From contig DATHAP010000227.1 of NCBI GenBank assembly GCA_035489715.1, positions 1 through 32,291 on the forward strand: a stretch of 32,291 nt of DNA. Reading direction: 5' to 3'. The stretch is from Actinomycetes bacterium. Lineage in GTDB: Bacteria > Actinomycetota > Actinomycetes > JACCUZ01. A model generated the notes under the pieces. It saw only the letters and a program-made list of their open reading frames with translations. It had not been told where the DNA came from and searched no databases. Of the stretch, positions 7,168 through 31,010 are shown piece by piece; the first letter of the stretch is position 1, and each line of letters opens with the position of its first letter. Made by a program: the position numbers and the translations under genes.

Positions 7168-7575
7168 ATGGGGGCGGACGTCGGGCTCGTCGCGGCGTCG
7201 GCGCTGCACGCCGGCTTCCAGCTCGTCGTCACCGTGCTCGTCTACCCGGCGTTCCGGACGGTGCCGGTCGAGCTCTGGGCGGCCCACCACGGCCGGCACA
7301 CCCGACGAGTCACCTGGCTGGTGGTGCCGGTCTACGGGCTGCTCGCGTTGGCCGGCCTGGCCACGCTGCGCTCCGGTGCGGACGCGTGGCAGCTGGTCGC
7401 CCTGGGGCTGCTCGTCGGGTGCGTGGTCGTCACGGCGACAGTCGCCGGGCCGGCGCACTCCCGGCTCGCGGCCGGTCGTGACCCTGCCGCGCTGGCTCGC
7501 CTGCTGGTCGCCGACCGGCTCCGGTGTGTCGCCGCCGTGCTGGCCGGCCTCGCGGCGCTGGTCGCTAGCTCTTGA
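7168..7575 (+). CDS. small four-helix membrane protein, unknown function
   Basis: The product is 135 residues with about four predicted transmembrane helices (roughly 5-25, 50-68, 75-96 and 112-132). Short charged loops include an AAHHGRHTRRV segment between helices 1 and 2. The His/Tyr-containing first helix (LHAGFQLVVTVLVYPAFR) resembles small integral membrane proteins of the DUF1772-like type, but I cannot assign a family with confidence. The gene begins 10 nt after the DUF2550 gene, so it probably belongs to the same transcript. Its 3' end overlaps the 3' end of the convergent phosphatase gene by 11 nt. Confidence 0.7.
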   Translation: MGADVGLVAASALHAGFQLVVTVLVYPAFRTVPVELWAAHHGRHTRRVTWLVVPVYGLLALAGLATLRSGADAWQLVALGLLVGCVVVTATVAGPAHSRLAAGRDPAALARLLVADRLRCVAAVLAGLAALVASS

Positions 7576-10444: not shown

Positions 10445-10499
10445 GCGCTCGAACGGCCGCCGGATCACGCTGTCGGTGCGTCCCACGAGGCTGGCGGTC

Positions 10500-10940
10500 A
10501 TGGACATCCAGATGATCGCCAGCTTCGCCGTCATCAGCAGCGACCCGGGCGCTGACCGCGCGCTGTTCGTGGACGCGATGGGACTGGGTCTGCACGGACC
10601 CGAGGGCCTCCGCGGTTCGGACTACCTCTTCTCCGACGACCTCGCGGGCGCCAAGCATTTCGGCGTGTGGCCGCTGGCCGAGGCGGCCGAGTCCTGCTTC
10701 GGCAGCGATCGCTGGCCGGACACCCATACGGTGCCGCAGGCGAGCATCGAGCTCGAGGTGGGCAGCGCCGACCAGGTCGACCGCGCGGTCGCCGAGCTGG
10801 CCGAACGCGGCCATCGGCTGCTGCACGGCACGCGGACCGAGCCCTGGGGCCAGGTCATCGCTCGTCTCCAGTCCAGCAGCGGTGTCCTGGTGGGGGTGTG
10901 CTGGACACCGTGGTACCACGCCGGACCGGCCGACGGGTGA
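10500..10940 (+). CDS. VOC (glyoxalase/bleomycin-resistance fold) protein
   Basis: The product is 146 residues from ATG 10500, which follows ACGAGG at a good distance; an upstream in-frame GTG at 10476 is less likely. The beta-alpha-beta-beta-beta layout and phrases such as [41 protein letters not shown] and the terminal WTPWYH segment are typical of VOC-superfamily proteins that bind small molecules or carry out metal-dependent chemistry. The substrate cannot be read from the sequence. It lacks the His-containing first strand (DHIGIAV-like) of methylmalonyl/ethylmalonyl-CoA epimerase, so I do not assign it to the nearby acyl-CoA pathway. Its stop is 2 nt from the stop of the convergent DUF1905 gene. 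Confidence 0.75.
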
Positions 10941-13162: not shown

Positions 13163-13464
13163 GTCGCCAGCAGCCGGCGGGCCCGGGCCTCGTCGGGCTC
13201 GAGCACCATCAGCCGAGGCCCGTCGGCCGTGGTCACCAGCGAGGCCCGGATGCCGGCACCCTGGAGCCGCTGCCGGGCCACCTCGCCCTCGATGAAGGTC
13301 CCCGGCGCCGACACCGCGACCATCAGGCCGTACTCGTCCTCGTGCCCCGCCCGGGCCCTGCGCTCGACGAGCGAGCGGCTGCGCCCGCCGAAGGCCCAGC
13401 GCAAGAGCAGCATGAGCACCCCGACGACGGCCAGGGCGATCGCGTAGCTGCGCCAGTCGAGCAC
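13159..13464 (-). CDS. membrane-anchored DUF2007-like protein
   Basis: The product is 101 residues from GTG 13464: a single N-terminal transmembrane helix (about 6-24), a basic linker ([15 protein letters not shown]), then a small domain of about 60 residues ([20 protein letters not shown]...GIRASL...[15 protein letters not shown]). This alpha/beta pattern resembles the DUF2007 fold, a putative signal-transducing domain. The match is by pattern only. Upstream of the GTG there is CACAAT at 6 nt, a weak -10 candidate. The gene is divergent from the hydroxyacyl-CoA dehydrogenase gene (81 nt between starts) and convergent with murA. Confidence 0.65.
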
Positions 13465-13545
13465 GGCTGGATTGTGCCCCTGCCCCGGCTGGATAGGCTC
13501 CCGCGGTCCCGCCGAACGCCGGTCCACTCCGAGGGAGCACCCCAG

Positions 13546-14466
13546 ATGAGCACGTCGAGCCCGTCCACCGCCGGAGCCGTCGTACCTGCCGGACCTGCCG
13601 GTCGTGCCGGAGTCGTCGGTGTCGTCGGTGTCGTCGGCGCCGGCCTGATGGGCGCGGGCATCGCCCAGGTCGCCGCGGTCGCCGGCCACCGGGTGGTCCT
13701 GCGCGACGTCACCGACGAGGCGCTCGGCCGCGGCCGCGCCGGGATCGAGCGGTCCCTGTCCCGGTTCGTGGCCAAGGGGCAGCTCGAGCAGGTCGCCGCG
13801 GACGAGGCGCTGGGCCGGATCACGACGGTGACCGACCTCGACGCGGTCGGGGACGCCGACGTCGTGGTCGAGGCGGTGTTCGAGGACATCGAGGTCAAGC
13901 ACGAGGTGTTCCGGGTGCTGGACCAGGTCTGCCGGGACGGCGCGGTGCTTGCCACCAACACCAGTGCCATCCCGATCACCCGGATCGCCGCGGTGACCGA
14001 CCGGCCGGAGGCCGTGGTCGGCACCCACTTCTTCTCCCCGGTCCCGATGATGGGGCTGTGCGAGCTGGTCCGCGGCCACCGCACCAGTGACGAGACCCTC
14101 GCTGCCGCGCGGGCGTTCGCCGAGGGTGTCGGCAAGACCTGCGTGGTGGTCACCCGCGACGTCGCCGGGTTCGTGACCACCCGGCTGATCTGCGCGCTGG
14201 CGATGGAGGCGGTGCGGCTCGTCGAGACCGGAGTCGCGACCGCCGAGGACGTGGACACGGCCTGTCGCCTGGGCTTCGGGCACGCCATGGGGCCGCTCGC
14301 GACGACCGACCTGACCGGCGTCGACATCCTGCGCAACGCGACCATGAACATCTACGCCGAGACCGCGGACGAGAAGTTCTTCCCGCCCGAGTCGCTGACC
14401 CGGATGGTCGCCGCGGGCGACCTGGGCCGTAAGTCCGGCCGTGGCTTCTACACCTACGATCGGTAG
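13546..14466 (+). CDS. 3-hydroxyacyl-CoA (3-hydroxybutyryl-CoA) dehydrogenase
   Basis: This family oxidises or reduces 3-hydroxyacyl-CoA/3-ketoacyl-CoA with NAD(P). The product is 306 residues from ATG 13546, which has GAGGGAG 8 nt upstream. A Ser/Ala/Pro-rich N-terminal extension (about 22 residues) precedes the Rossmann motif GAGLMGAG. Strand 2 ends in an acidic residue (VVLRDV), indicating NAD(H). The catalytic histidine is in HFFSP, with the partner glutamate in CELV. The Asn of the usual GFIVNRL motif is Thr212 here (GFVTTRL), as seen in a subgroup of homologues, so the substrate may differ from the classical enzyme. Three 9-nt repeats code the VVG-VVG-VVG just before the Rossmann loop. 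A strong hairpin follows the stop. Confidence 0.87.
   Translation: MSTSSPSTAGAVVPAGPAGRAGVVGVVGVVGAGLMGAGIAQVAAVAGHRVVLRDVTDEALGRGRAGIERSLSRFVAKGQLEQVAADEALGRITTVTDLDAVGDADVVVEAVFEDIEVKHEVFRVLDQVCRDGAVLATNTSAIPITRIAAVTDRPEAVVGTHFFSPVPMMGLCELVRGHRTSDETLAAARAFAEGVGKTCVVVTRDVAGFVTTRLICALAMEAVRLVETGVATAEDVDTACRLGFGHAMGPLATTDLTGVDILRNATMNIYAETADEKFFPPESLTRMVAAGDLGRKSGRGFYTYDR
13612..13638 (+). repeat. three in-frame 9-nt tandem repeats (VVG)3
   Basis: The unit gtcgtcggt occurs twice and is followed by gtcgtcggc, coding Val-Val-Gly three times at the first Rossmann strand of the dehydrogenase. Slippage here would add or remove three residues without breaking the frame. Confidence 0.8.
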
Positions 14467-14508
14467 CACGCACGCCCCGCTAGTCACATAGGTCACTTCG
14501 GTCGCATC

Positions 14509-14532
14509 CGCCACGCTGGCCCCAGCGTGGCG
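14509..14532. terminator. perfect GC-rich hairpin after the dehydrogenase gene
   Basis: CGCCACGCTGG and CCAGCGTGGCG form 11-nt perfect complementary arms separated by 2 nt, 42 nt after the dehydrogenase stop. The stem would be about 9-10 bp with a tight loop. No T-run follows, as is usual for high-GC actinobacterial terminators. It separates the dehydrogenase from the STAS/meaA unit. Confidence 0.65.
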
Positions 14533-14644
14533 TCAAGAATTCTGCAAGTCCGGTCCGTACCGTCCTGACCGAGGACGACAGGAGCCATCCTGGAGGCAAC
14601 CAGATGGCCGCCTCGCGCGTCTTGTCTGGTAAGGGGGTGGGGAG

Positions 14645-14953
14645 ATGGTCGTCAGCATGGCCTCGGGGTGCGAGATCGCCCTGGCCGGGCGCTTGGACGT
14701 GCGGTCGGTCGCCGACGTGCGCTCGGCGCTCTACGCCGCCATCGACGCCGGCACCGGGGACCTGGTCGTCGACGTCTCGGGCGTGGAGACGATGGATGCC
14801 ACCGGCCTCGGGATGCTGCTGGGCGCCGACCGCCGGGCCAAGCTGGCCGGACGCCGGGTCGTCCTGCACGACGCCGGACCGCGCCTGCTGCGCCTGCTGC
14901 ACGCCACCCGCCTGCACCGGGTCCTCACCGTGGACGAGGCCGTCCCGGCCTGA
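14645..14953 (+). CDS. STAS-domain anti-sigma factor antagonist-like protein
   Basis: The product is 102 residues, a complete single STAS domain: EIALAGRLDV (strand), an Ala-rich helix, LVVDVSGVETMDATGLGML and VVLHDAGPRLLRLLHATRLHRVL. STAS proteins of the SpoIIAA/RsbV type bind anti-sigma kinases and are switched by phosphorylation of a Ser/Thr at the loop before the helix; here DATGLG gives Thr53 as the candidate. The ATG at 14645 has AAGGGGG 7 nt upstream and an in-frame TAA just before. A second ATG at 14604 with an excellent GGAGG lies upstream in another frame. meaA starts 33 nt downstream. No anti-sigma partner is in the window. Confidence 0.82.
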   Translation: MVVSMASGCEIALAGRLDVRSVADVRSALYAAIDAGTGDLVVDVSGVETMDATGLGMLLGADRRAKLAGRRVVLHDAGPRLLRLLHATRLHRVLTVDEAVPA

Positions 14954-14972
14954 GGACCTGGTTACCGGCGAG

Positions 14973-14978
14973 TAGTAT
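14973..14978 (+). promoter_or_regulatory. -10 element of meaA (leaderless)
   Basis: TAGTAT lies 8 nt before ATG 14987, with no Shine-Dalgarno sequence between. TGAGGA at 14951-14956, 16 nt upstream of the hexamer, is a possible -35. The layout implies that the mutase gene has its own leaderless promoter in the short gap after the STAS gene. Confidence 0.55.
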
Positions 14979-14986
14979 CGCCGGGC

Positions 14987-17017
14987 ATGAGGACCCCGCC
15001 GCCTCCCGAGCGGGACCGCCCCTGGGTGATGCGCACCTATGCCGGGCACTCCTCCGCGGCCGAGTCCAACGCGCTCTACCGGCGCAACCTGGCCAAGGGC
15101 CAGACCGGCCTCTCGGTCGCCTTCGACCTGCCGACCCAGACCGGCTACGACCCCGACCACGAGCTCGCCCGCGGCGAGGTCGGCAAGGTCGGCGTGCCGG
15201 TCTCGCACGTCGGTGACCTGCGGGCCCTCTTCGACGGCATCCCTCTCGCCGGGATGAACACCTCGATGACCATCAACGCGCCGGCCATGTGGCTGCTCGC
15301 GCTCTACGAGGTGGTCGCCGAGGAGCAGGGGGCCGATCCGGCCGACCTCAGCGGCACGACGCAGAACGACATCATCAAGGAGTACCTCTCCCGCGGGACC
15401 TATGCGTTCCCGCCGGCAGAGTCGATGCGCCTGACGACCGACCTGATCGCGTACACCGTGCAGCGGATGCCGCGGTGGAACCCGATCAACATCTGCAGCT
15501 ACCACCTCCAGGAGGCAGGCGCGACGCCGGTGCAGGAGCTGGCGTTCGCGATGTCGACGGCGACCGCGGTGCTGGATGCCGTCCGCGACGCCGGCCAGGT
15601 GCTGCCGGAGCGCTTCGCCGACGTGGTGTCGCGCATCTCCTTCTTCGTCAACGCCGGTGTGCGGTTCGTCGAGGAGATGTGCAAGATGCGCGCGATGGTG
15701 CAGCTCTGGGACGAGCTCACTGCCGAGCGGTACGCCGTCAGCGACCCCATGGCCCGCCGCCTGCGCTACGGCGTGCAGGTCAACTCGCTCGGACTCACCG
15801 AGGCCCAGCCCGAGAACAACGTCCAGCGCATCGTGCTCGAGATGCTCGCGGTGACGCTCTCGAAGGACGCCCGGGCCAGGGCGGTGCAGCTGCCGGCCTG
15901 GAACGAGGCGCTCGGCCTGCCGCGGCCGTGGGACCAGCAGTGGTCGCTGCGGATCCAGCAGGTGCTCGCCTACGAGTCCGACCTGCTCGAGCACGACGAC
16001 CTCTTCGCCGGCTCGCACGTGGTCGAGGCCAAGGTCGCGGAGCTGGTCTCCGAGGCCCGGGCCGAGATGGCCCGGATCGAGGAGATGGGCGGCGCCGTCG
16101 CGGCGGTCGAGAACGGCTACCTCAAGGGTGAGCTGGTCGCCTCGCACGCGCGCCGCCGCGCCCGGGTCGAGTCCGGCGAGGACGTCGTCGTCGGCGTCAA
16201 CCTGTTCACCGAGACCGAGCCCAGCCCGCTGACCGCCGACCTGGACGCGGTGATCCAGTCGGTCGACCCGCAGGTCGAGGAGCGGGCGGTCACGGCGATC
16301 CGGGCCTGGCGCGAGCAGCGCGACGCGGCGGCCGTCGACGCCGCTCTGCGGGGGCTGCGCGACGCCGCCAAGATCGCCGACAACTTGGTGCCCGCCACGC
16401 TGGCCTGCGCCCGGTCCGGGGTCACGACCGGCGAGTGGGCCGAGGTGCTGCGCGAGGTGTTCGGCTCGTACCGCGCACCGACCGGCGTGTCCGGCAGCGT
16501 GGGGACGGCGCCCGCGGGGGAGGACCTGCAGGCGGTGCGCGAGGCGGTACGGCGCACCGGCGCCGAGCTGGGCACCCGCCTGCGGCTGCTCGTCGGCAAG
16601 CCCGGCCTGGACGGTCACTCCAACGGGGCCGAGCAGATCGCGGTGCGAGCTCGCGACGCCGGCTTCGAGGTCGCGTACCAGGGCATCCGGCTGACCCCGG
16701 CGCAGATCGCCGCGGCCGCCGTCGAGGAGGGCGTGCACTGCGTGGGGCTCTCGATCCTGTCCGGGTCGCACCGCGAGCTGGTGCCGGAGGTGCTGCGGCT
16801 GCTGCGCGAGGCCGGGGCCGGCGACGTGCCGGTCGTGGTCGGCGGCATCATCCCGGACGCCGACGCCCGCTGGCTGGAGGAGCAGGGCGTCGCCGCCGTC
16901 TTCACGCCGAAGGACTTCGAGATCACCGGCATCATCGGCCAGATCGTCCGGGTGGTGCGCGTCGCGCACGACCTGCCGACTGACGACGGCGCCGTGCATG
17001 GTACTACGACATCGTAG
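14987..17017 (+). CDS. meaA: ethylmalonyl-CoA mutase (MeaA/Ecm), AdoCbl-dependent
   Basis: This mutase rearranges (2R)-ethylmalonyl-CoA to methylsuccinyl-CoA in the ethylmalonyl-CoA pathway. The product is 676 residues, a single-chain acyl-CoA mutase. The N-terminal substrate-binding TIM barrel (about 10-520) contains GLSVAFDLPTQTGYDPDH, GMNTSMTINAPA, GTTQNDIIKEY and NICSYHLQEAGA. The C-terminal B12 domain (about 530-665) has GKPGLDGHSNGAEQIA, with the cobalt-ligand His544 in DxHxxG. The DGHSNGAEQ form and the NDIIKEYLSRGTYAFPPAESMRL stretch resemble the MeaA/Ecm branch rather than methylmalonyl-CoA mutase (DGHDRGAKVIA). That subfamily call is from memory of the motifs. A leaderless promoter precedes it, and an 18-bp palindrome overlaps its stop codon. 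Confidence 0.9.
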   Translation: MRTPPPPERDRPWVMRTYAGHSSAAESNALYRRNLAKGQTGLSVAFDLPTQTGYDPDHELARGEVGKVGVPVSHVGDLRALFDGIPLAGMNTSMTINAPAMWLLALYEVVAEEQGADPADLSGTTQNDIIKEYLSRGTYAFPPAESMRLTTDLIAYTVQRMPRWNPINICSYHLQEAGATPVQELAFAMSTATAVLDAVRDAGQVLPERFADVVSRISFFVNAGVRFVEEMCKMRAMVQLWDELTAERYAVSDPMARRLRYGVQVNSLGLTEAQPENNVQRIVLEMLAVTLSKDARARAVQLPAWNEALGLPRPWDQQWSLRIQQVLAYESDLLEHDDLFAGSHVVEAKVAELVSEARAEMARIEEMGGAVAAVENGYLKGELVASHARRRARVESGEDVVVGVNLFTETEPSPLTADLDAVIQSVDPQVEERAVTAIRAWREQRDAAAVDAALRGLRDAAKIADNLVPATLACARSGVTTGEWAEVLREVFGSYRAPTGVSGSVGTAPAGEDLQAVREAVRRTGAELGTRLRLLVGKPGLDGHSNGAEQIAVRARDAGFEVAYQGIRLTPAQIAAAAVEEGVHCVGLSILSGSHRELVPEVLRLLREAGAGDVPVVVGGIIPDADARWLEEQGVAAVFTPKDFEITGIIGQIVRVVRVAHDLPTDDGAVHGTTTS

Positions 17018-17019
17018 TA
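17002..17019. promoter_or_regulatory. perfect 18-bp palindrome, probable repressor operator
   Basis: TACTACGA-CA-TCGTAGTA has perfect 8-bp arms with a 2-bp centre. It overlaps the meaA stop codon, and its right arm contains TAG-TA(T) (TAGTAT, 17015-17020), a plausible -10 for the small gene at 17059. An operator covering the -10 would repress. The sequence resembles operators of the BlaI/MecI/CopY winged-helix family (TACTAC...GTAGTA); this resemblance is an inference from memory. No such regulator gene lies in the window. Confidence 0.6.
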
Positions 17020-17058
17020 TCGTGGTCGCGTCGTGCCGCCGGCGCCGAGGGGGAGAAC

Positions 17059-17235
17059 GTGACCGGACTGATCGGATGGCTGCGTCGGGTGGCGACGACG
17101 ACGGCACAGGATTGCGCCGGGTGCGGCGCAGCGATGGCAGCCACCGAGCTGGCCTGCCCGCAGGGCTGCGGCTTCGACCGGCGCAACGAGCGCCGGCTCT
17201 CCGGCGGCGCCTGGTCCCGTCTCGACCGGATGTGA
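17059..17235 (+). CDS. 58-residue zinc-ribbon protein
   Basis: A short gene that ordinary length cut-offs would miss. GTG 17059 follows GGGGGAG with 5 nt spacing, an excellent ribosome-binding site. The product has a short amphipathic start (TGLIGWLRRVATT), then CAGC (C19, C22) and CPQGC (C33, C37), a CxxC-x10-CxxxC layout that could bind one zinc, and a basic tail (FDRRNERRLSGGAWSRLDRM). I know no named family; it looks like the small zinc-ribbon proteins common in actinobacteria. The perfect palindrome 40 nt upstream, covering a possible -10, suggests it is specifically regulated. The convergent ABC permease ends 17 nt away. Confidence 0.7.
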   Translation: MTGLIGWLRRVATTTAQDCAGCGAAMAATELACPQGCGFDRRNERRLSGGAWSRLDRM

Positions 17236-17252
17236 GCTGCGGGCCGTCCGGC

Positions 17253-18092
17253 TCAGAGCTCGTCGCGCCGCTGCCAGCGGAAGCCCCGCATCGCGAGCAG
17301 GAGCGCCAGCACGGTCCAGGCCACCAGCACCAGAGCCACCCGGCCGAGCTCCCACGAGCCGGCGAGCTCCTGGCGCTGGAAGCTGTCGGGCAGGAAGACC
17401 GATCGCATGCCCTGGCAGAGCCACTTCAGCGGGAACAGTGCCGCCATCTGCTGCATCCACGAGGGCAGCTCGTCGTACTGGAAGAACACCCCGGACGTGA
17501 ACTGCAGGACGAGGACGACCGGTGACACGAGGGCCGGCGTCCCGCGGCCGGTGCGGGTCAGCCCGGTGAACGCGACTCCCAGCAGCGTGCAGCAGACCAG
17601 GCCGAGCACGCTGACCCAGGTCAAGGTCCACCAGTCGGTGGCTTCGTCGGGCAGGTGCACGTCGAAGAGCGCCACGCCGATGGCGAGCAGCAGGGCGACC
17701 TGCCCGACGTACAGCACGAGGACCTGACCGATCTTGCCCACGAAGTAGGCCGCCTTGGGCATCGGCGTGCCCTGCAACCGCTTCAGGGTGCCGTCGTCGC
17801 GCTCCTGGGAGATGGTGATCGCGAGGTTCTGGAAGGCCGTGTAGACGACGCCGGAGGCGATCATGCCGGCGACGAAGTACTGGCTGAAGGACACACCGGG
17901 CGCCACGTTGCCGGTGAAGGCCGATCCGAACACCACCAGGAGCAGGACCGGCAGGACCAGGGTGAAGAACGCCGCCTCGCGGTCCCGGGTGAAGGTGAGC
18001 AGCTCGATGCGGATGCGGCGCAGGCCGATCGCGAGAACGCCGGGTGTCGCGAGGTGCGCGCCGCCGCGGGTGGCGGGACCTGTAGCGCTCAT
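17253..18092 (-). CDS. ABC-2 type transporter permease
   Basis: The product is 279 residues with a short N-terminal cytosolic segment, a first transmembrane helix at about 41-58, and about five further helices, as in DrrB/YadH-type ABC-2 exporter permeases. Family-like features are the ERDDGTLKRLQGTPMP segment between helices 2 and 3 and the amphipathic FFQYDELPSWMQQMAALFPLKW segment before the last helix. Its ATG overlaps the TGA of the ATPase gene (ATGA), so the two subunits are translationally coupled and form one exporter. The substrate is unknown; drug, lipid or glycolipid are typical for this class. Confidence 0.9.
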   Translation of the reverse strand: MSATGPATRGGAHLATPGVLAIGLRRIRIELLTFTRDREAAFFTLVLPVLLLVVFGSAFTGNVAPGVSFSQYFVAGMIASGVVYTAFQNLAITISQERDDGTLKRLQGTPMPKAAYFVGKIGQVLVLYVGQVALLLAIGVALFDVHLPDEATDWWTLTWVSVLGLVCCTLLGVAFTGLTRTGRGTPALVSPVVLVLQFTSGVFFQYDELPSWMQQMAALFPLKWLCQGMRSVFLPDSFQRQELAGSWELGRVALVLVAWTVLALLLAMRGFRWQRRDEL

Positions 18093-18952
18093 GCCTCACC
18101 GACCATGCGCAGGTAGGTCTCCTCGAGCGTCGGCCGGGCGACGGTCAGGCCGGGCACCTCGCCGTCGAAGCGCCCGGCGAGCTCGGTCACCGTGCGGGTC
18201 GGCTCCGCCGACGTCGTGCTGCGCCGGGTGCCGTCGGGCTCGGTCCAGGTGACCGTGGCGAGCTCCTGCTGACGGCCACCGAGCGAAGCGGGCGGCGCGA
18301 CGTCGAGGAAGCGGCCGTCGGACATGACGGCGACCCGCTGGGCCAGCCGCTCCGCCTCGTCGAGGTAGTGGGTGGTCAGCAGGATCGTCGTCCCCTCGGC
18401 CGCCAGGTCCTCGACGAGGCGCCAGAAGGTCCGCCGGGCGGCCGGGTCGAAGCCGGTCGTGGGCTCGTCGAGGAAGAGCAGCTCGGGGCGGCCGAGGATG
18501 CCCAGAGCCACGTCGAGCCGGCGCCGCTGCCCGCCGGAGAGCAGCCGCGAGCGCTGGTCGGCGCTGCCGGTCAGGCCGACCGTCTCGACGACCTCGTCGG
18601 GGTCGCGCGCCGACGGGTAGTAGCCCGCGAAGTGCCGCAGCGTCTCGCGAACCGTCAGCTCGGACAGGTCGTTGACCGACTGCAGGACGATGCCGACCCG
18701 GGCCCGCCAGGCGGGGGTCGCCTGGGCCGGGTCGGTGCCCAGGACGCTGACCTCGCCCGCGTCGCGGGCCCGGTAGCCCTCGAGGATCTCGACCGTCGTC
18801 GTCTTGCCCGCCCCGTTGGGGCCGAGCAGCGCGACGACCTCGCCGGTGGCCACCTCCAGGTCGACCGCGTCGACGGCCGTACGCTCGCCGTAGCTCTTGC
18901 GCAGCCCGCGGACGACCACGGCTGCGCCCTCGTGACCCACGGGCACGAGCAT
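18089..18952 (-). CDS. ABC transporter ATP-binding protein (DrrA-like)
   Basis: The product is 287 residues from ATG 18952. All nucleotide-binding motifs are intact: Walker A GPNGAGKT (44-51), Q-loop Q91, signature LSGGQ (138-142), Walker B LLFLDEP (158-164) and H-loop H195 (TTHYLDEAE). The C-terminal 70 residues (about 220-287) are the extra domain of DrrA-type exporters, ending PTLEETYLRMVGEA. It powers the permease encoded immediately downstream. The gene is head-to-head with the MFS exporter gene, with only 30 nt between the start codons, so the two export systems may be co-regulated. Confidence 0.93.
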   Translation of the reverse strand: MLVPVGHEGAAVVVRGLRKSYGERTAVDAVDLEVATGEVVALLGPNGAGKTTTVEILEGYRARDAGEVSVLGTDPAQATPAWRARVGIVLQSVNDLSELTVRETLRHFAGYYPSARDPDEVVETVGLTGSADQRSRLLSGGQRRRLDVALGILGRPELLFLDEPTTGFDPAARRTFWRLVEDLAAEGTTILLTTHYLDEAERLAQRVAVMSDGRFLDVAPPASLGGRQQELATVTWTEPDGTRRSTTSAEPTRTVTELAGRFDGEVPGLTVARPTLEETYLRMVGEA

Positions 18953-18982
18953 GCCGGACGACTGCGACGCGGAAGGACGCGG

Positions 18983-20266
18983 GTGACGAACCTCCTCCGG
19001 CGGGTCGCGGTCGACGTCCGTCCGTTGCGGCACGGCGCCTTCCGCCGGCTGTGGCTCGGGCAGAGCGTGTCGGTCGTCGGCTTCCAACTCACCGGGGTCG
19101 CCGTCGCGGTCGAGATGTTCGCCATCACCTCCTCGTCGCTGTGGGTCGGCCTGATCGGGGTCGCGGCGCTCGTGCCGCTGGTGGTGTTCGGGCTGTACGG
19201 CGGGGCGGTGTCCGACGCGGTCGACCGGCGCCGGCTGCTGGTCGCGTCGTCCTACCTGACCTGGCTCAGCACGTTCGGGCTGCTCGCCCAGGCGCTCCTG
19301 GGGCTGGAGCAGCGCTGGGTGCTGCTCGGGCTGGTTGCGCTGCAGTCGGTCGGCTTCGCCTTCACCTCGCCGACCCGTGGGGCGGTCGTGCCGCGGATCG
19401 TCCCGCGAGACCTCGTGCCGTCGGCCAACACCCTGGTGTCCACGGCCCTGGGTGTCGGTGCCGTGGTGGGTCCGCTGCTCGCCGGGGTGGTGCTGGCCCG
19501 CGGCAGCTATGCACTGGCCTACGGGATCGACGCGGCGCTGTTCACCGCGGCGCTCTACGCCGCCCACCGGCTGCCGCCCATCCTGCCGCTGGGCGAGGTC
19601 ACCCGGCCGGGGCTGCGATCGGTGGTCGCGGGCCTGGCCTTCATCCGACGGCACCCGGTGTTGATGATGTCCTTCGCCGTCGACATCGCCGCGATGGTGC
19701 TGGCGATGCCGAGGGCGCTGTTCCCGGAGGTCGCGGAGGAGCGCTTCGGTGGCCCGGCCGCGGCCGGCTGGCTGTTCGCCGCCATCGCGATCGGCTCGGT
19801 GGTCGGGGGCCTGCTCTCGGGCTGGATCGGGCGGGTGCGCCGCCAGGGCGCGGCGCTGGTGGCGGCGGTGGTCGTGTGGGGACTCGCGGTGGCGGCCGCC
19901 GGGCTGGCCGGCGACCTGTGGCTGGTCGTGGCGCTGCTGGCCGTCGGCGGCGCGGCCGACCTGGTGTCGGCGGTCTACCGGCAGACCATCCTGCAGACCT
20001 ACGCGCCGGACGAGATGCGCGGCCGGATGCAGGGCGTCTTCATCGTGGTCGTCGCGGGCGGCCCCCGGCTGGGTGACCTGCGCGCGGGGGCGAGCGCCGC
20101 GGCCTTCGGCGTCACCTGGTCGTGGGTGGGCGGCGGCATCGCCTGCGTGGTCGTCGTGCTCGCCCTGGCGGCCGCGGTGCCGGCGCTGGTCCGCTACCGG
20201 GCCGGCGACGGCCCGGTCGCCGAGGACGACGAGAACTCCGTGGAGGGCGCGGTCGAGCCCCGGTAG
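18983..20266 (+). CDS. MFS transporter (EntS-like exporter family)
   Basis: The product is 427 residues from GTG 18983, which follows GGAAGGA with 5 nt spacing. About 10-12 hydrophobic helices are visible. The N-terminal HGAFRRLWLGQSVSVVGFQLT, the loop GGAVSDAVDRRRLL between helices 2 and 3, and FTSPTRGAVVPRIVPRDLVPSANTL match the MFS_3/EntS-like exporters (enterobactin exporter and relatives). The C-terminus is a short acidic tail. The transported molecule is unknown. The head-to-head ABC exporter suggests export or resistance functions. The next gene starts 12 nt downstream, but with its own -10-like hexamer. Confidence 0.9.
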   Translation: MTNLLRRVAVDVRPLRHGAFRRLWLGQSVSVVGFQLTGVAVAVEMFAITSSSLWVGLIGVAALVPLVVFGLYGGAVSDAVDRRRLLVASSYLTWLSTFGLLAQALLGLEQRWVLLGLVALQSVGFAFTSPTRGAVVPRIVPRDLVPSANTLVSTALGVGAVVGPLLAGVVLARGSYALAYGIDAALFTAALYAAHRLPPILPLGEVTRPGLRSVVAGLAFIRRHPVLMMSFAVDIAAMVLAMPRALFPEVAEERFGGPAAAGWLFAAIAIGSVVGGLLSGWIGRVRRQGAALVAAVVVWGLAVAAAGLAGDLWLVVALLAVGGAADLVSAVYRQTILQTYAPDEMRGRMQGVFIVVVAGGPRLGDLRAGASAAAFGVTWSWVGGGIACVVVVLALAAAVPALVRYRAGDGPVAEDDENSVEGAVEPR

Positions 20267-23248: not shown

Positions 23249-23389
23249 CGAACTCCCTCCGTGACGAGCCGGCCCCGGTTCTCCGCACCGGCTCGCGAGT
23301 GGGACCTGTCTACCCCACCCAACGCCCCCCATGCACCAGGGGTGCCCACCCGGCGCGGCGTGTCGGGGCAGGCCTGGGAGACTGCCCTC

Positions 23390-25168
23390 ATGGGACGTGA
23401 GTTCGCCACTGTCGGTGTCGTCGGGCTGGGCACGATGGGGGCCGGGATCGTCGAGGTCTTCGCCCGCAACGGGCTCCGGGTCGTGGGCGTCGAGCCCTCC
23501 GAGGAGCTCCTGGAGAGCGGGCGCGGGCACCTGCGGCACTCGACCGACCGGGCGGTGAGCAGGGGCAAGCTCTCCGAGGCAGACCGTGACGAGCTGCTGG
23601 GTCGGGTCACCTTCACGACGTCGATGGAGGACCTGGCCGACGTCGACATGGTGATCGAGGCGGTGCCCGAGCGGCTCGACCTCAAGCAGGAGATCTTCGC
23701 GGCTGCCGACAAGATCTGCCGGCCGGACACCATCCTCGCCACCAACACGTCCTCGCTGTCGGTGACCGAGATCTCGGTGGCGACCAGCCGGCCGTCCAAG
23801 GTCGTCGGGATGCACTTCTTCAACCCGGCCCCGGTGCTCAAGCTGGTCGAGGTCGTGCGCACCGTCGTCACCGAGCCCGAGGTGGTCGCCGACATCGAGG
23901 CGCTCGCCGCCCGGCTCGGCAAGGTGCCTGTGGTCATCGGCGACAAGGCCGGGTTCATCGCCAACGCCCTGCTGTTCGGCTACCTGAACCACGCGGTGTC
24001 GATGTACGAGTCCCGCTACGCCTCGCGCGAGGACATCGACGCCGCGATGCGGTTCGGCTGCGGCTACCCGATGGGCCCGCTCGCGCTGCTCGACCTGATC
24101 GGGCTCGACACGGCGTACGAGATCCTCGACACGATGTACCGCCAGTCGCGCGACCGGCTGCACGCCCCAGCTCCCCTCATCAAGCAGATGGTCACCGCAG
24201 GCCTGCGCGGCCGCAAGACCGGCCGTGGCTTCTACACCTACGAGCGACCGGACTCGCCGGTGGTCGTCGACGACGACCTGACGCCGTCGCCGCACGCCCA
24301 TGAGGGCGGCGGCCGCACGGTGGAGAAGGTCGGCGTGGTCGGGTCAGGCACGATGGCGGTCGGCATCGTCGAGGTGCTCGCCAAGGCGGGCTACGACGTG
24401 ATGTACGTCGCTCGAGGTGACGAGAAGGTCGCCCGGGTGCGCGGCACCCTCGAGCGCTCGCTCGAGAAGGCCGTGCTGCGGGGCAAGCTGTCGGAGGAGG
24501 ACCGCGACGCCGCCCTGGCGCGGGTCACCGGGTCGTCCCGGCTGGACGACCTGGCCGACCGCGACCTGGTGCTCGAGGCCGTGGTGGAGGAGCTGTCGGT
24601 CAAGCAGGCGCTGTTCGCCACCCTGGACGAGATCTGCCGCCCGGGCGCCCTCCTGGCCACCACGACGTCCTCGCTGCCCGTGGTCGAGCTGGCCGCCGCG
24701 ACGACACGGCCGGCCGACGTGGTCGGCCTGCACTTCTTCAACCCCGCACCGGTGATGAAGCTGGTCGAGGTCGTGCGCACGGTGTCGACCGCCGACGACG
24801 TGGTCGCCACCGCGCGGGCGCTGTGCGAACGGGCCGGCAAGCACGCGGTCGAGTGCGGAGACCGGGCCGGCTTCATCGTCAACGCGCTGTTGTTCCCCTA
24901 CCTCAACGACGCGGTCAAGATGCTGCAGGCGCACTACGCGACGGTCGAGGACATCGACTCCGCGATGATCGTCGGGTGCGGCTACCCGCTCGGGCCGTTC
25001 GACCTGCTGGACGTGGTCGGGCTCGACGTGGCGCACGCCATCCAGCGGACGCTCTACCTGGAGTTCCGCGAGCCGGGCTTCGCCCCCGCACCGCTGCTGG
25101 AGCAGCTGGTGACGGCCGGCTACCTGGGCCGCAAGGCCGGCCGCGGGTTCCGCGACTACGGCGCCTGA
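23390..25168 (+). CDS. tandem (two-domain) 3-hydroxybutyryl-CoA dehydrogenase
   Basis: The product is 592 residues made of two complete 3-hydroxyacyl-CoA dehydrogenase units (about 1-287 and 311-592) joined by an acidic linker. Unit 1 has the Rossmann loop GLGTMG (12-17), acidic E35 after strand 2, ATNTSSL, HFFNPAP, KLVEVV and GFIANALL. Unit 2 has GSGTMA (318-323), A341-R342 where the acidic residue should be, ATTTSSL (Asn replaced by Thr425), HFFNPAP, KLVEVV and GFIVNALL. The catalytic His, Glu and Asn are therefore kept in both, but unit 2 looks suited to NADP rather than NAD. ATG 23390 has GGGAG 9 nt upstream. The hydrolase gene starts 11 nt downstream. It probably acts on acetoacetyl-CoA/3-hydroxybutyryl-CoA, upstream of Ccr. 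Confidence 0.9.
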   Translation: MGREFATVGVVGLGTMGAGIVEVFARNGLRVVGVEPSEELLESGRGHLRHSTDRAVSRGKLSEADRDELLGRVTFTTSMEDLADVDMVIEAVPERLDLKQEIFAAADKICRPDTILATNTSSLSVTEISVATSRPSKVVGMHFFNPAPVLKLVEVVRTVVTEPEVVADIEALAARLGKVPVVIGDKAGFIANALLFGYLNHAVSMYESRYASREDIDAAMRFGCGYPMGPLALLDLIGLDTAYEILDTMYRQSRDRLHAPAPLIKQMVTAGLRGRKTGRGFYTYERPDSPVVVDDDLTPSPHAHEGGGRTVEKVGVVGSGTMAVGIVEVLAKAGYDVMYVARGDEKVARVRGTLERSLEKAVLRGKLSEEDRDAALARVTGSSRLDDLADRDLVLEAVVEELSVKQALFATLDEICRPGALLATTTSSLPVVELAAATTRPADVVGLHFFNPAPVMKLVEVVRTVSTADDVVATARALCERAGKHAVECGDRAGFIVNALLFPYLNDAVKMLQAHYATVEDIDSAMIVGCGYPLGPFDLLDVVGLDVAHAIQRTLYLEFREPGFAPAPLLEQLVTAGYLGRKAGRGFRDYGA

Positions 25169-26007: not shown

Positions 26008-26421
26008 ATGAACGAGCTCGACTTCTGGGTCGGAGACTGGCACGCGGCGTGGGAGGGAGGCGCCGGGCGCAACTCGGTCACCCGCGAGCTCGGCGGCCGC
26101 GTCTACGTCGAACGTTTCGAGGCGCACGGCGACGAGCCGTTCTCGGGCATGAGCCTGAGCGTCCGGCACGCCGGCACGGGGCAGTGGCGGCAGACCTGGG
26201 CGGACTCCGAGGGGAGCTACTGGTCCTTCGTCGGGTCGGTGCTCGCCGACGGGTCCTTCGTCTTCGCCACGCCGGACCGGGTCGACGAGGAGCAGGCGTT
26301 CAAGCGGATGGTCTTCTCCGACGTCACCCAGGACGCCTTCCACTGGCGGTGGGAACGGTCCCAGGACGGCGAGACGTGGGAGCAGCGATGGGCCATCGAC
26401 TACACGAGAAGGCCGCGGTGA
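26008..26421 (+). CDS. DUF1579-like lipocalin-fold protein
   Basis: The product is 137 residues. It begins MNELDFWVGDWHAAWEGG, the FWVGDW opening typical of DUF1579-like proteins, and continues with alternating strands (YVERFEAHG, WRQTWADSEGSYWSFVGSVL, FHWRWERSQDGETWEQRWAIDY), consistent with a small lipocalin-like beta-barrel. The biochemical function is unknown; such proteins often bind small hydrophobic compounds. It starts 18 nt after the hydrolase gene, and its TGA overlaps the GTG of the next hydrolase (GTGA), so it is coupled to that gene. Confidence 0.75.
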   Translation: MNELDFWVGDWHAAWEGGAGRNSVTRELGGRVYVERFEAHGDEPFSGMSLSVRHAGTGQWRQTWADSEGSYWSFVGSVLADGSFVFATPDRVDEEQAFKRMVFSDVTQDAFHWRWERSQDGETWEQRWAIDYTRRPR

Positions 26422-27206
26422 CCGTCCAGCTCGCGGCACAGGTCGTCGGTGACGGCCCGCCGCTGGTGCTGCTGCACGCGTTTCCGCTCTCCGCGGCCAT
26501 GTGGGAGCGGCAGGCGACGGGCCTGGCCGACGTCGCACGCGTCGTGACGCCGGACCTGCGCGGGTTCGGCGACTCGCCGCTCGGGGCCGACGAGCCCTCG
26601 CTGGACCACGCCGCGGACGACGTCGTGGCGCTGCTGGACCGGCTCGGGCTCGGCCCGGTCGTCCTCGGCGGCCTGTCGATGGGCGGGTACGTCGCCATGG
26701 CCCTCCTTCGCCGGCACCCCGGCCGGCTGCGCGGCCTGCTGCTGGCCGACACGAAGGCGGGTGCCGACCCGGCTGCCGCCCGGGACAACCGGCTGCGGAT
26801 CGCCGCCCGCCTCGATGCCGAAGGCAGCCCGGCCGTCCTGGTCGAGGACGTCCTGCCGGGCCTCACCGGCCCGACGACGGCTGCCGAGCGGCCCGACGTC
26901 GTCGCCCGGGTGCGGGCCATGGTCGGGTCGGCCCCTCCCGCCGCGGCCGCCTGGGCCCAGCGGGCGATGGCCGCCCGCCCGGACTCGCTCGACGTGCTGC
27001 GTGGCGTCGACGTACCGGCACTGGTCCTGCGCGGTGACGAGGACGGCCTGGCGGGCTCGGACGAGGTCGCAGCGATGGCCGACGCGCTGCCCCAGGGCCG
27101 GCTCGAGACGCTGCCGCGGGCCGGGCACCTGACCGCGCTGGAGGTGCCGGACGAGGTCGTCCGAGCGGTCCGTGGCCTGCTGGCCCGGGTGGAGCAGCCG
27201 GGCTGA
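26418..27206 (+). CDS. alpha/beta hydrolase (BioH/3-oxoadipate enol-lactonase-like)
   Basis: The product is 262 residues from GTG 26418, which overlaps the previous stop (GTGA) and has GAGAAGG just upstream; an in-frame ATG at 26391 is possible. Motifs of the fold: LVLLHAFPLSAAMW (oxyanion loop), VVTPDLRGFGDSPLG, nucleophile elbow GLSMGG (Ser87), acid D207 or D209 in LRGDEDGLAG, and His237 in RAGHLTALEVPDEV. The arrangement resembles 3-oxoadipate enol-lactonase or BioH-type esterases, but the substrate cannot be fixed. It ends 7 nt from the convergent AI-2E transporter gene. Confidence 0.88.
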   Translation: MTVQLAAQVVGDGPPLVLLHAFPLSAAMWERQATGLADVARVVTPDLRGFGDSPLGADEPSLDHAADDVVALLDRLGLGPVVLGGLSMGGYVAMALLRRHPGRLRGLLLADTKAGADPAAARDNRLRIAARLDAEGSPAVLVEDVLPGLTGPTTAAERPDVVARVRAMVGSAPPAAAAWAQRAMAARPDSLDVLRGVDVPALVLRGDEDGLAGSDEVAAMADALPQGRLETLPRAGHLTALEVPDEVVRAVRGLLARVEQPG

Positions 27207-29558: not shown

Positions 29559-31010
29559 TCATCTTGGCACGTCCGCGTGCGACACGTTCAGGGCCTCGAT
29601 GACGCCCGACAGGCGGCCGAGCTCGGCGGCGATCTCGTCTCGCCGGGTGATGAGGGCGGCCACCTCCTCGCGGGCGTCGTGCAGGATCTGACGGGCCTGG
29701 CGGCGCAGCTCGTCGGCTTCGGTCCGGGCGTCGCCGACCAGGCGCACCGCCTCGGCCCGGGCGTCGCGGCGGGCTTCCTCGGACTCGCGCTGCGCCGTCG
29801 CCACCTGCTCGGCGACCCGTTCGCGCAGCGCACGGGCGTTGGCCTCCGCCTCGGCCTCGCGGCGGTCGGCCCGGGACTCGATCGCCCGCACCTTGGTGGT
29901 GGCCTCGTCGACGGTCCGGGACGCCCGGTGGCTCGCGTCGGCCAGCCGGCGCTCGGCCTCGGTCTGCGCCTGGGCAAGGACCTGGTCGGCCTCGGACTCG
30001 ACCGCCGCGGCTCTCGTGGCCGCGTCGGCAAGCCGCGTCTCGGCGCTCTCGCGGCTGCTCACCAGCAGCTCCTCGGCCTGGGCCCGCAGCTCGGCCACCA
30101 CCTTGGCGGCCTCGGCGTGGGCGTCGGAGCGGATCCGCTCCGCGTCGCCCGCCGCGGCCTCGAGCACCTCGTCGACCGTGCGCTTGGCCCAGGCGGTCTG
30201 CTCGGCCGCCGCCGCCAGCACGGTGTCCGCCTCGTCGCGCGCCTCGGCGCGGATCCGCTCGGCGTCGGTGCCCGCCACGTCGGCCAGGCCGGCGACCTGA
30301 CGGCGGACGTGGCCGGCGTCCTCGTCGGCGGCCGCCCTGGTCGCCGCTGCCTGCTCGGCGGCGGCCGTCAGGACCGCCTCCGCCTCGGCCCGGGCGCCTT
30401 CGACCAGGCGGGCGACCTCGCCCTCGACCTCGGCCAACCGCTTGTCGGCCTCGTCCTGCGCCTCCAGTCGGCGGCGGGCGGCGTCCTCGCGGGCCTCGGC
30501 GATGACGCCGTCCGCGTCCTGCTGCGCCTTGTCCCGCACCATCTGCGCCTGCGCCCTGATCGACTCGGCGTCGGCGCCCGCCACGTCGCGCAGGGTGTCG
30601 GACTCCTGCTGGGCCCGGGCCACCAGCTCGTCGGCGTTGGTGGCGGCGGCCGTGACGACCATGGAGGCCTGGTCCGCCGCGTCGGCGAGCAGCTGGCGCG
30701 CCTCCTCGCCGGCCTCGGTGCGCTGGCGCTCCGACTCGGTCAGCGTCTCCTCGAGCCGGCGCGCGGCCTCCTCCAGCGCGTCCGCGCGGCGGCGTACCGC
30801 CTCCTCCTCGAGGCGCGCGGCCTCGCTGTGACGCTCGGCGATGTCGTCGTGGAGGCGCTGGGCCTCCGCGCGCAGCGCCTCGGAGGCGTCGCGGTCGGCA
30901 GCGACCTCGCGCTCGGTCTGCTCGCGCAGCCGGTCGGCCTGGGCCTGGGCGGCGTAGAGCAGTCGGCTCGCGCGCTCGGCGACCGGCTCGTCGGAGGCGT
31001 CGTGCTCCAT
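29559..31010 (-). CDS. Scy-like long coiled-coil cytoskeletal protein (short form)
   Basis: The product is 483 residues, almost entirely one coiled coil from about 10 to 470, made of Ala, Glu, Arg, Asp and Gln with hydrophobic positions in 11-residue and 7-residue spacing. No globular domain or transmembrane helix is seen. The phrase DAE(S/R)IRA recurs at about 147 and 249, 102 residues apart, which is twice the 51-residue period described for Scy/FilP-type coiled coils. Streptomyces Scy, the scaffold of the tip-organising centre, is more than twice as long. Its place just before filP supports a Scy-like role in polar growth or cell shape. ATG 31010 has CACGAT 6 nt upstream. Confidence 0.75.
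   Translation of the reverse strand: MEHDASDEPVAERASRLLYAAQAQADRLREQTEREVAADRDASEALRAEAQRLHDDIAERHSEAARLEEEAVRRRADALEEAARRLEETLTESERQRTEAGEEARQLLADAADQASMVVTAAATNADELVARAQQESDTLRDVAGADAESIRAQAQMVRDKAQQDADGVIAEAREDAARRRLEAQDEADKRLAEVEGEVARLVEGARAEAEAVLTAAAEQAAATRAAADEDAGHVRRQVAGLADVAGTDAERIRAEARDEADTVLAAAAEQTAWAKRTVDEVLEAAAGDAERIRSDAHAEAAKVVAELRAQAEELLVSSRESAETRLADAATRAAAVESEADQVLAQAQTEAERRLADASHRASRTVDEATTKVRAIESRADRREAEAEANARALRERVAEQVATAQRESEEARRDARAEAVRLVGDARTEADELRRQARQILHDAREEVAALITRRDEIAAELGRLSGVIEALNVSHADVPR

Follow-up and report, generated by a model that had tools for sequence, protein, structure and literature searches.

Small zinc-ribbon and treble-clef proteins, such as those of the DUF2116 and Zn_ribbon_DUF2089 families, are the described proteins that come closest to the 58-residue (58-codon) reading frame analysed here, termed ORF58 and located at positions 17059–17235 of a 32,291-nucleotide stretch of DNA (the window) from an Actinomycetes bacterium. 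ORF58 shares with them its short length, two cysteine pairs that are each followed by a glycine, and a basic tail. It differs from them in its second knuckle, in which three residues instead of two separate the cysteines, and its matches to DUF2116 and Zn_ribbon_DUF2089 fall far below the family cut-offs, with no relatives found. The second described kind is the lineage-restricted orphan small gene of bacteria, which ORF58 resembles in being short, absent from the relatives examined, weakly adapted in its codons and placed in a variable intergenic stretch; unlike such genes in general, it combines a four-cysteine motif with a Shine-Dalgarno (SD) sequence, which is rare among the chance frames of its own genome. 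The third concerns the DNA upstream. BlaI/MecI-type repressors use TACTAC...GTAGTA-like sites, and a palindrome of similar sequence also stands upstream of the gene in the window, whereas no such repressor was found in the genome itself.

Our analysis suggests that ORF58 is probably a genuine lineage-restricted (orphan) small gene that is translated and has some function. If translated, it would be a small protein gene of a size that length-limited gene callers may miss, found so far in one genome only, with a junction that lacks it visible in a relative. ORF58 is ordinary in kind, and no statement on any new mechanism follows from it yet.

Candidate gene between meaA and an ABC exporter

ORF58 lies on the forward strand with a GTG start, a TGA stop and a basic C-terminal part, and its cysteines are spaced as C19-x2-C22-x10-C33-x3-C37 (CxxC-x10-CxxxC). 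The start codon, the length and the cysteine pattern given in the original prediction are exact in the sequence. Gene and domain calls also confirmed the predicted position between meaA and an ABC exporter. The upstream neighbour is a meaA-type acyl-CoA mutase gene (14987–17017, forward strand) encoding MM_CoA_mutase and B12-binding domains, and genes for a STAS protein and a 3-hydroxyacyl-CoA dehydrogenase lie upstream of it in turn. On the other side, an ABC-2 exporter permease (17253–18092, reverse strand) converges on ORF58, with the exporter ATP-binding subunit at 18089–19048 on the same strand, both assigned by Pfam and NCBIfam; the closest named match of the permease belongs to an Actinomycetota MAG. 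The stop codons of meaA and the permease are separated by 235 bases. The assembly that contains the window (G000) comprises 3.53 Mb in 231 contigs and is 98.5% complete.

The frame remains open for 25 codons upstream of the GTG without a further ATG, GTG or TTG, and the GTG at 17059 is therefore the first start of ORF58. An SD-like GGGGGAG is present at 17049–17055 (forward strand), 3 bases 5' of the GTG; its spacing had been called ideal, but 3 bases is somewhat short. An alternative SD, GAGGGG at 17047–17052, has a spacing of 6.

Codon usage and motif frequency

Codon scores were trained on 237 long ORFs from a sample of 60 stretches of the same genome, amounting to 700,738 bases with the window. 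The comparison sets were 480 real gap ORFs of 40–110 aa, 1185 shadow-frame windows, 20,033 simulated gap ORFs derived from the genome's own gaps, and 948 windows from real genes. In its own frame ORF58 reached a score of +0.093 nats per codon; the other five frames were all negative. This score was equalled or exceeded by 11.9% of the 480 real gap ORFs, which may themselves include real small genes, by 4.5% of the shadow-frame windows and by 0.14% of the simulated ORFs, placing ORF58 above 99.86% of the latter. Just 0.9% of the 948 windows from real long genes scored as low as ORF58. Across 35 called small genes (60–110 aa) the lowest score was 0.18, although these do not form an unbiased set because they were called with a score threshold. 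Judged by synonymous choice alone, ORF58 was matched by 0.18% of 4,000 simulated ORFs (a subset of the 20,033) and ranked at the 6th percentile among 380 windows from genes. The G+C contents at codon positions 1, 2 and 3 are 0.69, 0.67 and 0.86 in ORF58, compared with 0.73, 0.47 and 0.96 in meaA.

The four-cysteine motif occurred in 0.17% of the 20,033 simulated ORFs, a probability that is partly selected because ORF58 was chosen by a reader who had noticed the motif. An SD sequence, as defined by our own short pattern list, preceded 13% of them, and 0.03% had both; none combined the motif and the SD with a codon score as high as that of ORF58. Among the 480 real gap ORFs in 700 kb, the motif was found in four, two of which we take to be ordinary zinc-ribbon proteins, and ORF58 alone of the 480 combines the motif with an SD. 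A glycine after both knuckles is a feature of three stop-to-stop frames out of 4257 (50–150 residues), one of them ORF58. Together, the codon and motif statistics favour ORF58 as coding.

These codon and cysteine statistics argue against a different explanation, in which ORF58 is a chance frame in a fast-changing intergenic stretch and the palindrome upstream of it serves the meaA transcript as a terminating or protective RNA hairpin. We consider this explanation rather unlikely. In its favour, the codon score of ORF58 is low for a gene, and stop-free frames abound at a G+C content of 72%, as the 480 gap ORFs of 40–110 aa in 700 kb illustrate.

Relatives and the junction in other genomes

No relative of ORF58 was found in a 98-genome relatives set, its 7 other same-family genomes included, or in 396 phylum genomes, two overlapping sets that both count the own genome. 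No other congeneric genome is among those listed for the relatives set and for the class. Contigs of named genomes and viral contigs likewise gave no relative, in scans that reach only close relatives because a locus is recognised only if it contains one of six 8-residue stretches of ORF58 unchanged. Plasmids and phages contained no relative, and NCBIfam, PHROGs and the PDB sequences yielded no match. Matches at E 0.0038–0.0049 in G008 (two), G013 and G087 and at E 3.1e-4 in G660 were aligned to ORF58 and dropped, as none of the weak matches (loci L002–L005 and L218) retains more than two cysteines out of four. The match in G660 lies within a 744-residue open frame that is presumably a PurL-like enzyme. 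As no relative was found, purifying selection on ORF58 cannot be shown.

In G003, the nearest relative examined, meaA and the permease are 84% and 79% identical to those of the window and converge in the same way, with their stop codons 9 bases apart, and ORF58 and the palindrome are therefore absent there. In G006 (locus L008), the end of meaA is kept, and a stretch coding for the permease ending RWQRRDE is still present beside the start of an MFS gene; as just this stretch remains, the exporter is all but absent. The meaA end and the permease remnant are separated by about 276 bases, which contain no ORF58-like frame. The meaA–permease pair is kept in G026, with about 446 bases between the two genes and no match to ORF58. 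Among 80 named exporter loci, meaA was detected at E 1e-20 or better in seven (L073, L076, L078, L084, L085, L086 and L088), and a search of these seven for ORF58 returned matches at chance level only, the best at E 0.29 (L086) and 0.54 (L076). An ORF58-like frame was thus seen in none of the relatives examined. The 235-base stretch may have been gained in the own lineage or lost in G003; either is possible.

The chance-frame explanation gains from these comparisons: no relatives were found, and the stretch between the stop codons measures 9 bases in G003 and, at about 276 bases, is without a matching frame in G006. Codon and motif statistics favour the predicted real small gene, whereas conservation lends it no support, given that no relative was found and that the stretch is absent in G003.

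Another explanation, which we regard as improbable, sees ORF58 as the non-functional, decayed remnant of a longer gene that arrived by recombination; the terminal part of a zinc-ribbon protein would be an example. Its codon choice, intermediate between genes and gaps, and its insertion-like position relative to G003 would fit such an origin. Against this, ORF58 is complete with start, SD and stop, and no longer homologue was found.

Predicted product and expression

For ORF58 as a genuine small gene, the cysteines are the main guide to the product. The first knuckle, CAGCG, fits the CxxC(G) type, and the second, CPQGCG, is one residue longer. Pfam gave matches below the cut-offs only, to DUF2116 (E 0.051, 14 bits against a cut-off of 26.8) and Zn_ribbon_DUF2089 (E 0.11, 13 bits against 27.6). 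A single-sequence AlphaFold2 prediction produced a poor model (mean pLDDT 65.5, pTM 0.34) with helices at residues 3–29 and 41–55; this low-confidence, all-helical model contains neither strands nor a ribbon. The zinc-ribbon assignment of the original prediction is thus suggested by the cysteine pattern; the sub-threshold Pfam matches and the helical model, which is too poor to be decisive, lend it no support.

Judging from the sequence, the product, if translated, would most likely be a small zinc protein that binds nucleic acid or protein. A single zinc ion may be coordinated by C19, C22, C33 and C37, with CAGCG and CPQGCG forming two short knuckles behind a putative N-terminal helix (LIGWLRRVATT), and the basic tail could interact with RNA, DNA or another protein. 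Translation of ORF58 would draw on one of two routes of expression. Transcription may read through from the upstream 3-hydroxyacyl-CoA dehydrogenase, STAS and meaA genes. Alternatively, a promoter with the -10 element TAGTAT inside the palindrome may drive ORF58 and be covered by a repressor encoded elsewhere.

Palindrome at the end of meaA

The perfect, AT-rich 8-2-8 palindrome TACTACGACATCGTAGTA lies at 17002–17019 (arms and spacer TACTACGA-CA-TCGTAGTA), a candidate operator or RNA-hairpin core, and overlaps the meaA stop codon (TAG, 17015–17017). It is unique in the window at up to 3 mismatches (0.00 expected from 100 shuffles), occurs once in the own genome at up to 2 mismatches, and has exact copies in two class genomes out of 393, the own one and G318. 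It was not seen at the meaA–exporter position in any relative examined. The 700 kb contain 10 AT-rich palindromes of this class (arms of at least 8, spacer of 0–8, A+T content of 50% or more), compared with 4, 2 and 3 in the three first-order resamplings; the one at 17002–17019 is among the two richest in A+T of the 10. The upstream operator-like palindrome of the original prediction is perfect, AT-rich and unusual, but it is a single site.

Folding predicted an RNA hairpin of 28 bases at 16997–17024 (forward strand), with 12 pairs, two of them G-U, and a loop of 4, which extends across the meaA stop with an energy of -15.2 kcal/mol. This fold would suit a chance ORF next to a hairpin at the end of meaA. 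However, 1.8% of 20,000 random 28-base windows of the own genome fold as well, and such hairpins show no enrichment at stop codons, as they occur in 18.2% of 435 stop regions and 19.1% of 435 intragenic stretches. The larger stretch 16985–17060 has only a slight folding advantage over shuffled versions of itself, 18 of 200 of which folded equally well (z -1.56). A role as a terminator is disfavoured, as a scan of 16900–17300 for intrinsic terminators was negative and the AT-rich palindrome is followed by no T run. Rfam gave no match for 16800–17400 at E up to 1.

On the operator side, TAGTAT at 17015–17020 (forward strand), read from the sequence within the palindrome, is a possible but weak -10 element, and a promoter scan around the palindrome detected no hexamer pair. 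None of the 25 window proteins scanned matched a regulator family above the Pfam cut-off; the dehydrogenase at 13414–14463 matched AbiEi_4 at 22.2 bits, below the cut-off of 25. Four of the 25 (7168–7575, 10476–10940, 26008–26421 and 29559–31010) were without any family, and at least three called genes (61–390, 471–674 and 26400–27128) lay outside the scan, so that a nearby regulator is just unlikely. A full-text literature search on both half-sites revealed, by title and among the matches listed, no operator of such kind. The regulation of ORF58 proposed earlier is possible in view of the palindrome, but among the 25 proteins scanned no regulator family was found, and a hairpin is possible as well. 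The palindrome may be an operator or an RNA hairpin; both are possible.

That the palindrome is a BlaI/MecI-type operator controlling ORF58, an idea that concerns regulation only and is compatible with the other explanations, is very improbable: the shape of the site and the 10 AT-rich palindromes against 4, 2 and 3 in the resamplings support it, but the repressor family PF03965 has no match in G000 while 7 of 14 control genomes were positive, and the site's single occurrence in the genome and its presence in only 2 class genomes also count against it; as far as an assembly that is 98.5% complete allows, the idea is largely refuted.

For ORF58 as a lineage-restricted gene, we tentatively propose a more specific form, which is possible but less than probable: a newly arisen, genus-level gene for a small metal-binding protein, with its own single-site promoter/operator between meaA and the exporter.

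Additional observations

The second exact copy of the palindrome, in G318, is located at 1501–1518 of locus L042, directly before the ATG at 1519 of an unrelated ORF, and the gene preceding it there is presumably MarR-like. A MarR link for the palindrome is an idea resting on this one case. The looser pattern ACTACG-N4-CGTAGT, at up to 2 mismatches, has 161 forward matches in the own genome against 61 for the backward control, and its seven one-mismatch sites all carry a change from A/T to G/C. One guess is that coding sequence causes this excess.

Elsewhere in the same genome, a 49-residue ORF (locus L185, 4872–5021, reverse strand) with a CxxC-x16-CxxC pattern and a score of 0.29 per codon is a candidate for a zinc-ribbon-like small gene.

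The order dehydrogenase–STAS–meaA (13342–17017 in the window) is kept in 11 of 23 meaA loci (L006–L028) from six families, a count that includes the own locus and some incomplete loci. The conserved STAS protein within this acyl-CoA gene set is worth attention. Farther downstream, the window encodes at 23261–25168 a 635-residue protein in which the N domain and the C domain of 3-hydroxyacyl-CoA dehydrogenase are each matched twice, apparently a tandem fusion.
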